From positions 1-64,000 of the forward strand of contig JAEPLN010000001.1 of the NCBI GenBank assembly GCA_017644425.1: DNA of 64,000 bases. Direction: 5' to 3'. The notes below the pieces were generated by a model, which was not told the origin of the DNA, did no database searches, and was given only the letters and a program-made list of their open reading frames with translations. This stretch comes from Prochlorococcus marinus CUG1433 (GTDB lineage: Bacteria; Cyanobacteriota; Cyanobacteriia; PCC-6307; Cyanobiaceae). A program made the translations under genes and the position numbers. How positions within the stretch are numbered: position 1 is the stretch's first letter; every line of letters starts with the position of its first letter. Below are positions 56,196 through 61,877 of this stretch, piece by piece.

Positions 56196-56507
56196 CTATT
56201 TATTATCTTTGTCTTCTTTTTCTTCATTGTCGATAACGAATGAGTTAATCAAAAGCCTTATGCCAATTATAAAAAATGTTATTGAGGCTATAGATTTAAG
56301 AGCCACTTCTGGTAAAAAACTTGAAATAGATCCACCTGTCAAAGCTCCTAGTAAACTTGCAAAGACAAGTGCAGAAGAAGATCCTAAAAAAACAGCTAAT
56401 GGTTTATTAGACGTGCCGCTTATAGTTAAGGTGGCTAGTTGAGTTTTGTCACCTAATTCAGCAATAAAAACAGTTAGAAATGTCGAAAGTAATAAACTTA
56501 AAACCAT
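56196..56507 (-). CDS. half-size UPF0016 (GDT1/TMEM165) membrane protein
   Basis: 103 residues, three helices. Carries the family motif ELGDKTQLATL in the first helix region (about 17-27). UPF0016 proteins exchange Mn or Ca for protons; most have two such repeats in one chain. Here one repeat, with the second on the adjacent gene; the start ATG immediately follows the upstream stop. Confidence 0.88.
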   Translation of the reverse strand: MVLSLLLSTFLTVFIAELGDKTQLATLTISGTSNKPLAVFLGSSSALVFASLLGALTGGSISSFLPEVALKSIASITFFIIGIRLLINSFVIDNEEKEDKDNK

Positions 56508-56834
56508 TTATAAATATTGTTTATAAGTATCATAAGCTAAAAAAACACTTATTATTATCATTAAAATTCCAGTAAATAATGCAAATCTACTTGGAGATAT
56601 TTTTTTTGATAACCATTTTCCTATTAGGACACCCACAATACTAGAGCTTATCAATGCTAGAGAACTTCCAAGAAAGACAATTATTGGCTTTCCGGATTCA
56701 GCAGAAAGCATGAGCGTTGCTATCTGCGTTTTATCTCCAAGTTCAGCAATAAAAATTGTTGTAAAAGTTGTAATGAATATAGACAAGAAACTTTTCTCTA
56801 TTTTGTTTTCTTGTTTTTCCAATTTACTATTCAT
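56508..56834 (-). CDS. half-size UPF0016 (GDT1/TMEM165) membrane protein
   Basis: 108 residues, three helices, with motif ELGDKTQIATLMLS (about 31-44) after a short basic N-terminus. Companion of the gene just downstream; together they would form the heterodimer equal to a full-length Mn exporter. Overlaps the YkgJ-type gene by 4 bases. Confidence 0.88.
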   Translation of the reverse strand: MNSKLEKQENKIEKSFLSIFITTFTTIFIAELGDKTQIATLMLSAESGKPIIVFLGSSLALISSSIVGVLIGKWLSKKISPSRFALFTGILMIIISVFLAYDTYKQYL

Positions 56835-57347: not shown

Positions 57348-58112
57348 TTGGTGGCTTATCTCGAAGGTGTTTATTGGGATTTAGATGGAACTATAGCAAA
57401 TACTGAATTAGAAGCTCATTTACCTGCTTTTAATAATGCTTTTAAAGACCTTGGTATTAAATGGTATTGGGATGAAAAAAAATACATAGAGCTCTTGAGG
57501 ATAAATGGGGGCAAGAATAGAATTGCTTACTACTCCAAATCAATTAATGATGACTTTTCTGAAGATATAATTATAAAAATACATGAAAAAAAACAGCTTC
57601 ATTATCTAGAAATAATAAAAAGAAATACCGTGCAATTTAAAACTGGTGTTTTTAGGTTAATAAACGAATTACATAAAAAAAAAGTAAGACAATTTATTGT
57701 TACTTCAAGTTCCAGAAAGCAAGTTGATTTACTTCTTGAATATCTATTTAATGGCTTCAATCCCTTTGAGTTCATTATTTCAAGTGATGACGTTGAATTA
57801 AAGAAACCAGATCCAATACCTTATTTTAAGGCAATTCAATTAAGTGGTATCAAAGAAAATAACTCAATAGTTTTCGAAGATTCTAATCCAGGATTGAAAT
57901 CTTCTTTAGCAGCTAACTTGCCGACAATTTTTATTCCTTCAAATATTCCAATAGTTCTTGAGGAAAATATTAGATTAGATTGTATTTTAGACAGTCTTGG
58001 TGATGAGAATAATGTGGCAAACGTTATTAAAGGCCCTAAACTAAAAAAATCATATGTTGACCATACCTTCCTAAGTGATTATTTAACGTCTGTTAGTGAT
58101 GCAAAAAACTAA
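57348..58112 (+). CDS. HAD-superfamily phosphatase (CbbY-like)
   Basis: 254 residues. HAD motifs: WDLDGTIANTE (nucleophile Asp), FIVTSSSRKQ, KKPDP and FEDSNPG. Cap domain type I, as in CbbY/Gph. CbbY-like enzymes hydrolyse sugar bisphosphates that inhibit Rubisco; direct proof is lacking. TTG at 57348 or GTG at 57351 starts it, 10 bases after psb30. Confidence 0.88.
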   Translation: MVAYLEGVYWDLDGTIANTELEAHLPAFNNAFKDLGIKWYWDEKKYIELLRINGGKNRIAYYSKSINDDFSEDIIIKIHEKKQLHYLEIIKRNTVQFKTGVFRLINELHKKKVRQFIVTSSSRKQVDLLLEYLFNGFNPFEFIISSDDVELKKPDPIPYFKAIQLSGIKENNSIVFEDSNPGLKSSLAANLPTIFIPSNIPIVLEENIRLDCILDSLGDENNVANVIKGPKLKKSYVDHTFLSDYLTSVSDAKN

Positions 58113-58428: not shown

Positions 58429-58599
58429 CTATTCTTCTTCTTCTTCTTCTATAGGGTAAACAAATCCTTGAGCTTTACCAGTTAAAACTGATTTACCTAA
58501 AGATATTGCTTTTTGTGCTGCTATTGCTGCTTTTCCTTTCCAAACAGCATGCCTTTGGTTTCTTTTGCTTTTTGATTTTTTCTTCTTTGGTACAGCCAT
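58429..58599 (-). CDS. rpmF: 50S ribosomal protein L32
   Basis: 56 residues: [20 protein letters not shown], then [16 protein letters not shown] and an acidic C-terminal Glu run. L32 pattern clear. The four zinc Cys of some L32s are absent, i.e. a C-minus paralogue. Convergent to ycf20. Confidence 0.95.
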
Positions 58600-58730
58600 T
58601 CTGTTTCTTTATTTCCTTATAATAATATAACCTTTAACTGGTTATCTCCAAAACTTTTGAGTATATTTTGTTTATATACGTCCATTTTTTAAATAAGCAT
58701 ATATGCTTTATTAATAACTTATAAAGATTA

Positions 58731-60485
58731 GTGTTCAGATCTAAATTTTCTTATTCCAATTCTAAATCAAGTTATTCGGATCTTCTAGAGGATATAGAGG
58801 CGGGAAAAATAGAATCAATATTTTACTATCCAAGACAGAGAGAAATTGATGTTTTATATAAAAATGGTGACAAATTTAAAATACCTATCCTTTACAACGA
58901 TCAGTTAATCCTTGAAAAGGCTACTGAAAATAAAGTGGAACTTACAGTCAATAATAGTAGAAAAGAAGCCTCAGCTGCTAATTCGTTTGCTTCAATCACC
59001 CTTTTACTGATTTTTATATTAGCTTTAGTTCTAATATTGAGGAGTACATCAAAATTAGCCTCTAGGGCCTTTGGTTTTACCAAAAGTAAAGCTAAATTTG
59101 TAACTATTGATGACGTAGAAACGAGATTCGATGATGTCGCCGGTGTTCCTGAGGCAGCTGAAGAATTAAAAGAGGTTATAACTTTTTTGAAAGAACCCAA
59201 AAAATTTGAAAATCTAGGGGCAAAAGTTCCTAAAGGAGTACTTTTAATCGGCCCTCCTGGAACAGGTAAAACATTATTGGCTAAAGCAATCGCTGGTGAA
59301 TCAGGAGTCCCCTTTCTCTCAATATCTGCATCTGAATTTGTAGAACTTTTTGTTGGTGTTGGCGCAAGCCGTGTCCGTGAGCTTTTCATTAAGGCTAAAG
59401 AAAAATCTCCTTGTATAATTTTTATTGATGAAATTGATTCTATTGGTAGGCAAAGAGGGTCTGGGATCGGAGGTGGAAATGATGAAAGAGAACAAACCCT
59501 TAATCAGCTTCTAACTGAATTAGATGGTTTCGCTGATAATTCAGGGATTATTGTTTTAGCGGCAACAAATAGACCAGATATTTTGGATGCAGCATTATTA
59601 CGACCTGGAAGATTTGATAGAAAAATAGAAGTTATGCTCCCTGATTTAGATGGAAGAAAAAAAATTCTTTCAGTACATGCACTTTCAAAACCACTTTCAA
59701 GCGAAGTTGACTTAGCATATTGGGCTTCTAGAACAGTTGGATTTTCTGGGGCAGATCTTGCAAATTTGATGAACGAGAGTGCTATTCATTGTGCAAGAGA
59801 TGAATCCAAATTAATCAGTGATCTGCATATAGAAAATGCTCTTGACAAAATTACAATTGGACTTCGAAGTTCTTTAATAACTTCTCCAAATATGAAGAAA
59901 ATAATTGCTTACAACGAAGTAGGCAGAGCAATTGTATCTGCTGTTAGAAATGGGATTGAATCAGTTGATAAAATCACAATTTTGCCTAGATCTGGGTCTC
60001 TAGGAGGATATACAAAAATATGTCCTGACGAAGATGTAATATCTAGTGGCTTGATTTCAAAAAAATTATTATTTTCAAAAATTGAAATTGCTCTAGCAGG
60101 AAGAGCAGCAGAAACTATTGTTTTTGGTGAAAATGAAATTACTCAATGCTCTATAAACGATATCTCTTTTGCGACTAAGATTGTAAGAGAAATGGTTACA
60201 AAATATGGATTTTCAATTATTGGTCCAATTGCAATGGATTCTGATAATAATGAAATGTTTTTGGGAGATGGATTATTTACAAGAAAGCCACTCATAGCAG
60301 AAAATACTAGTTCTAGAATAGATAATGAAATCATAAAGATTTCTAAAATATCATTAAACAATTCAATACAAATTTTGAAAAAAAATAGAGTCTTACTAGA
60401 TAAATTAGCTGACATACTTCTAAATAAAGAAACTGTAGATAAAAAAGTATTTAAATTAATAACTTCTAAATTCTTGAAAGTTTGA
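58731..60485 (+). CDS. FtsH-like AAA+ protein lacking the protease zinc motif (FtsHi-type)
   Basis: 584 residues from GTG 58731. The N-terminal FtsH domain begins at about 15, one hydrophobic helix (88-104), AAA+ module with Walker A GPPGTGKT (174-181), Walker B IIFIDEID and an arginine-finger block (RPGRFDR). The zinc motif HExxH is N-E-V-G-R (395-399): both His ligands are gone; only the Glu and the third-ligand Asp (D477) remain. The frame has a stop just before the GTG, so the first membrane helix is also missing. ATPase/unfoldase yes, peptidase very unlikely. A membrane gene follows 39 bases later. Confidence 0.88.
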
Positions 60486-61292: not shown

Positions 61293-61877
61293 CTATAGCG
61301 CAGAAAAATATTCCTTACTACCTTTGGGGTCCTCTAACATTGTTTTCTCCCCAGGGGTCCAGTTTGCTGGACAGACTTCATCTGGGTTTGCCGCAACGTA
61401 CTGATAACCTTGAAGAATCCTTAGTGTTTCATCAACATTTCTACCAACAGGAGCCTTGTTAACTGTCGTATGCATAACTACTCCTTCGGGATTGATAAGG
61501 AATAAACCTCTATCGGCCTCTCCATCATCGTTAAGAACATTGTAGGCCTGGCAAATTTCTCTTTTTAAGTCAGAAACTAATGGGTAATTAATATCACCTA
61601 TTCCACCTTCATTTCTTGGAGTTTGTATCCAAGCTAGATGACAGTGTTTGCTGTCAACTGATACACCAAGTATTTCAGTATTAAGTGCTGAGAAATCTTG
61701 ATATCTATCACTAAATGCAGTGATCTCTGTTGGACATACAAATGTAAAGTCTAAAGGGTAAAAGAATAAAACAACCCATTTACCTCTTAGACCTGAAAGT
61801 GTAATCTCTTTAAACTCTTGATCATATACTGCTGTAGCACTAAAGTCTGGTGCTTCTTGGCCAACTCTTAAGCTCAT
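61293..61877 (-). CDS. 2-Cys peroxiredoxin
   Basis: 194 residues. Peroxidatic C48 in [13 protein letters not shown] and resolving C169 in [21 protein letters not shown] (GGLG flexibility motif) and a C-terminal YFSAL end resembling YF, typical of overoxidation-sensitive forms. Reduces H2O2 and organic peroxides using thioredoxin. Convergent to the 250-aa membrane gene. Confidence 0.96.

Follow-up and report, generated by a model that had tools for sequence, protein, structure and literature searches.

The ftsH4 locus

The window analysed here is a 64,000-nucleotide stretch of the genome of Prochlorococcus marinus CUG1433. One of its genes, ftsH4, encodes an FtsH-like protein (Table 1); the genome has three other FtsH genes, and HExxH is present in every one of them. 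In profile searches the product of ftsH4 matches the NCBIfam FtsH family TIGR01241 with 653 bits (cut-off 600) and the Pfam AAA domain with 157 bits, and its M41 peptidase domain scores about 153-156 bits against 231-257 bits in the other three. The AAA+ motor has the parts that define an FtsH: Walker A and B, the FVG pore loop, sensor 1 and the arginine fingers. The initial annotation had called this half intact, with Walker A at residues 174-181, a Walker B and arginine fingers, all of which were found; it had also read NEVGR for HExxH at residues 395-399, which the open reading frame confirms. An FtsH protease is further defined by HExxH plus Asp and by two N-terminal membrane helices. The ftsH4 product has NEVGR in place of the motif (79/79) and a single helix, and because the zinc motif is lacking it is kept out of the active FtsH proteases. 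It fits the descriptive definition of an FtsHi, in which the M41 and AAA+ domains are present and HExxH is absent. An AlphaFold2 model of the protein (mean pLDDT 76.6) is similar to solved structures of FtsH and also to those of the Ycf2-FtsHi motor, 8xku and 8xqw, a likeness that is expected because any FtsH would show it.

Elsewhere in the window, at 56196-56834 on the reverse strand, two adjacent short open reading frames of 103 and 108 amino acids each carry ELGDKTQ. This is the signature of UPF0016/GDT1-type transporters, and the two frames are half-size genes.

Table 1. Features of the ftsH4 locus in the window
Feature	Position	Strand	Basis
ftsH4, protease-dead FtsH, 584 aa, GTG start	58731..60485	+	ORF and profile matches, MED4 FtsH4 primers, gene order
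TAA stop, in frame, three codons 5' of the ftsH4 GTG	58722..58724	+	sequence; kept in about 76/79 named high-light genomes
FtsH_ext-like domain, residues 10-74	58758..58952	+	PF06480, 29 bits (weak)
Lone predicted membrane helix, residues 83-106 (corresponds to FtsH helix 2)	58977..59048	+	hydropathy 2.9; helix 83-106 in AlphaFold2 model
Walker A GPPGTGKT, residues 174-181	59250..59273	+	K180, T181 in every aligned ortholog, dead or live
Pore loop 1 FVG, residues 207-209	59349..59357	+	all dead orthologs, bar one V to I
Walker B CIIFIDE, residues 228-234	59412..59432	+	D233, E234 in all orthologs aligned
Arginine-finger block RPGR, residues 291-294	59601..59612	+	R291, R294 in all orthologs aligned
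Inactive M41 peptidase domain, residues 384-575	59880..60455	+	PF01434, 153-156 bits
NEVGR at the place of HExxH, residues 395-399	59913..59927	+	79/79 readable named high-light genomes
Asp477, former third zinc ligand	60159..60161	+	D in 77/80 high-light sequences
rpmF (ribosomal protein L32), divergent neighbour, synteny marker	58429..58599	-	gene order
HAD-like hydrolase, upstream synteny marker	57348..58112	+	gene order
2-Cys peroxiredoxin, 3' neighbour of ftsH4 in Prochlorococcus	61293..61877	-	gene order

Identity of the gene

Of the published qPCR primers (PMC6300248), those designed for MED4 FtsH4 fit the ortholog of genome G015 with zero mismatch, and the MIT9313 FtsH4 primers fit that of G103 equally well; the MED4 FtsH1 and FtsH2 primers match the orthologs of the paralogs L002 and L001, respectively. 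These exact matches identify the window gene as Prochlorococcus FtsH4. The HAD hydrolase gene and divergent rpmF flank ftsH4 in protease-dead and protease-intact orthologs across the family, and the peroxiredoxin gene lies near it in Prochlorococcus. The conserved order of HAD, rpmF and ftsH4 thus establishes orthology without a protein tree.

The product is presumed to be the counterpart of Synechocystis FtsH1 (Slr1390). It groups with FtsH1-like sequences from across the class, in a tree built without a named Synechocystis sequence. In the literature this assignment was called 'less obvious' than those of the other FtsH proteins (Bonisteel 2018, PMC6300248), and FtsH4 has been treated as a protease with functions parallel to those of Synechocystis FtsH1 (Bonisteel 2018, PMC6300248; PMC11262661).

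Fixation and origin of the altered zinc motif

The set of named genomes comprised high-light Prochlorococcus only and gave 80 ftsH4 loci, 79 of which read through. YNEVGR, Walker A, Walker B, RPG and the GTG start are each present in all 79 readable genomes. A second, overlapping set of 32 high-light genomes has NEVGR in all but one member, which has NEGGR. Since NEVGR is fixed in 79/79 named genomes, a sequencing error is ruled out; the fixation expected among sister strains is borne out, and the HExxH that would have spoken against it is found at this place in none of these high-light genomes. No ftsH4 and no adjacent HAD gene were found in G073, or in the less complete G105 and G120. G073 is 99% complete, and its case may be a true loss of the locus or an assembly gap.

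Intact HExxH is found in the orthologs of all sampled Cyanobiaceae outside the dead clade where the gene was located, among them MIT9313 (HEIGH), and likewise in seven relatives at the level of the class. The dead forms are distributed over five genera. Next to NEVGR of the high-light strains, genus g45 has NEVGK and HEAGR; genus g30 has NEAGK, HEIGK, NEVGR, NEIGR, YEIGR, NEIGI and NTIGR; and genus g55, possibly LLI, has Q[IV]IG[KR] in 20/20. The very divergent G060 has RNASK, and G065 has NEAGK. Genus g30 presumably contains SS120, which we take to be G065.

The dead orthologs, from high-light and several low-light genera, form a single clade with a support of 99/98, or of 98 in a second tree from which the four ligand columns were removed, and this clade is nested inside the protease-intact picocyanobacterial orthologs. 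The loss of the motif in FtsH4 has a single origin. On a quick tree with long branches flagged, the counted label changes are one for the second His, at least three for the first His, at least three for the Glu and at least four for the Asp; the one loss of H399 lies right at the base of the dead clade. Live orthologs are near-invariant at 54 positions of M41; of these, H399 and A474 alone have been lost from each of the four dead clades, and the second His is Lys or Arg in every aligned dead sequence except one. The single change at H399 and its loss in every dead clade indicate that the second His was likely the first to go, being replaced by a basic residue, and that the other ligands drifted afterwards. 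The basic side chain may occupy the place of the zinc ion and bridge E396 and D477. The initial annotation held that the third ligand remains. An Asp is indeed present at 477, but it is not fully constrained, being Ser, Asn or Glu in 3/80 high-light sequences and often lost in low-light ones.

A viral origin was rejected: no relative of the ftsH4 M41 domain was found among viral contigs, and the FtsH proteins of such contigs nearly all have HExxH. In all, 72 IMG/VR contigs classed as viral (L307-L378) carry an FtsH relative, the readable ones nearly all with HExxH; some may be misclassified cellular DNA.

Selection on the motor and on the former active site

All 32 aligned dead orthologs, G060 included, retain K180, T181, D233, E234, sensor 1 N280, R291, R294 and the pore loop, apart from one V to I in that loop. 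By a simple counting method applied to the same ten high-light genomes for all three genes, dN/dS is 0.055 for ftsH4 (0.029 in AAA and 0.095 in M41), 0.017 for FtsH1 and 0.010 for FtsH2. FtsH4 is therefore more relaxed than its paralogs, yet firmly constrained. This is the purifying selection that had been proposed, and the relaxation of the whole gene that would have contradicted it is not seen. A dN/dS of 0.055 and an open frame in 79/80 rule out a pseudogene.

Nowhere in the dead domain is conservation stronger than in the helix that once held the active site. Helix 389-408 has 36 extra synonymous codon variants and one residue variant, against 231 and 125, respectively, in the rest of M41 (Fisher p = 9e-6), where variants and not phylogenetic events were counted. 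High-light strains show no erosion of the dead site. Judged from sequence, most Prochlorococcus have one FtsH that lacks the cutting site and keeps its ATP-driven motor, a state preserved by selection. In the ten high-light genomes dS of ftsH4 (0.23) is well under that of ftsH1 (0.63) and ftsH2 (0.38); recombination and codon constraint are possible causes.

The first membrane helix

The protein had been described as a helix-truncated FtsH. The helix is indeed absent, and a TAA precedes the GTG, but the truncation does not belong to the pseudo-protease package. In dead orthologs 6-27 residues precede the FtsH_ext motif, with a convincing membrane helix in none; on the same hydropathy scale the N-termini of the paralogs reach 1.9-2.9. 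The close protease-intact relatives, MIT9313 included, also have no hydrophobic stretch at the N-terminus, and such a stretch is present in some relatives with larger genomes. Since the helix is missing in protease-intact relatives too, the truncation is older than the zinc loss and separate from it, and helix loss as a part of the inactivation was rejected. The missing helix could weaken mixing with two-helix partners.

In several of the class-level FtsH1-like orthologs (L196, L200-L205) the hydrophobic N-terminus ends in A-x-A and resembles a cleavable signal peptide. The single-helix topology of the mature protein may predate the picocyanobacteria.

Possible functions of FtsH4

FtsH works as a hexamer, and in M41 peptidases the loss of a zinc-binding His ends zinc binding and cleavage. 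With moderate confidence, FtsH4 is best described as a subunit that contributes ATPase activity only and shares a hexamer with a protease-active FtsH. Such mixing into FtsH hexamers had been suggested in the initial annotation and is plausible. Prochlorococcus FtsH4 would have descended from a cyanobacterial FtsH1-type subunit, in which the second zinc-binding His was changed to Lys or Arg before the high-light clade and most of the low-light ones diverged. By M41 chemistry this change would have abolished zinc binding and peptide cleavage. The AAA+ motor stayed under strong selection. The hexamer partner in the same cell is probably Prochlorococcus FtsH2, of the Synechocystis FtsH3 type; the candidate in this genome, L001, is protease-intact with HEAGH. 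FtsH4 would take part in recognising, unfolding and threading membrane proteins, and the partner would cut them. We infer the loss of catalysis, the partnership and the role. The partner of FtsH1 in Synechocystis is FtsH3; the complex of the two is essential (PMC11287208) and controls stress regulators. FtsH1 is a type-B subunit (PMC9020784), and according to the account given there, citing Zhang 2010 and Yu 2013, inactivation of the type-B protease is tolerated and that of the ATPase is not. In MED4 the transcript pool is dominated by isoforms other than FtsH4 (Bonisteel 2018, PMC6300248), so that the share of FtsH4 in the hexamers may be small.

A mixed hexamer is not the only assembly that would suit a retained motor. 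It is possible, though doubtful, that FtsH4 assembles only with itself and that these homohexamers, like the plant Ycf2-FtsHi motor, work at the membrane as an unfoldase, extractor or chaperone that does not cut. The fully retained motor residues, the topology unlike that of the paralogs and the resemblance of the model to 8xku and 8xqw agree with this proposal, and the frozen active-site helix (36 synonymous variants to one residue variant) suggests a new constrained role. However, any FtsH would be expected to look like FtsHi in structure, and the Synechocystis FtsH1 type is reported only in a complex with FtsH3 (PMC11287208, PMC9020784). It is unlikely that FtsH4, as a bacterial FtsHi of independent origin, uses ATP to extract or unfold proteins at the membrane on its own, its frozen helix with Lys or Arg serving as a binding or gating surface.

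The gene might instead be decaying under relaxed selection and heading for loss, as the fast evolution and long branches of the dead lineages, the loss of near-invariant residues (18-35% in M41 vs 5-12% in AAA) and the failure to find the locus in G073 and the less complete G105 and G120 could suggest. The open frame in 79/80 named genomes, the overall dN/dS of 0.055 and motor residues invariant across four genera and G060 make such decay quite improbable. It is still harder to believe that the altered site binds metal or cleaves by another chemistry: most high-light genomes do keep E396 and D477, but by established chemistry Lys or Arg at 399 is no normal zinc ligand, genus g55 has lost E396 and D477 is variable.

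Prochlorococcus are the most abundant photosynthetic cells of the ocean. The prediction from sequence that FtsH4 is unable to cut in most of them would recast protein turnover in the most abundant phototroph. It also sets up a natural experiment on mixed FtsH hexamers: can one type of subunit do without its protease site? Sister strains with an intact site, such as MIT9313, are ready controls.

Comparison with FtsHi and other known systems

FtsHi1-5 of plants and algae and the Ycf2-FtsHi motor are likewise FtsH-like, with AAA+ kept and HExxH absent; plastid FtsHi is a component of the Ycf2/FtsH12 import motor. In plant FtsHi2 the first His is also Asn, in the motif NEAAM (PMC11266112). The motif of FtsH4 mostly ends in G[KR], unlike most plant FtsHi motifs. 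The initial annotation had proposed a cyanobacterial counterpart of the plant proteins. As a matter of descent this was not upheld: the nesting of the dead clade among protease-intact picocyanobacterial orthologs, in a tree without plant sequences, rules out descent from a plastid-type FtsHi and indicates that the zinc motif was lost inside Prochlorococcus, independently of plants.

FtsHi in Prochlorococcus is not wholly unreported. One FtsHi was counted in P. marinus SS120 in a single sentence (Mishra et al. 2019, PMC6460958; repeated in PMC8197885), very probably the SS120 ortholog of ftsH4. That count concerns one strain and does not include clade-wide fixation, a single origin, protease-intact sisters or selection; no account of the first three was found in the literature searched.

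The published FtsH4 of MED4 and of MIT9313 are the same gene as ftsH4 of the window. The zinc motif is lost in MED4 and intact in MIT9313, whereas the published view is that of a protease. Synechocystis FtsH1, the likely ortholog according to the published tree, is a type-B FtsH and the partner of FtsH3. FtsH1-like orthologs outside the family differ from the window protein in having HExxH (7/7) and a hydrophobic N-terminus. The closest engineered parallel is the protease-dead mutant of Arabidopsis FtsH2 (var2), a type-B subunit whose protease is dispensable and whose ATPase is not, as PMC9020784 summarises Zhang 2010. The natural FtsH4 repeats this laboratory type-B mutation; the Arabidopsis change was engineered, whereas that of Prochlorococcus is natural and fixed.
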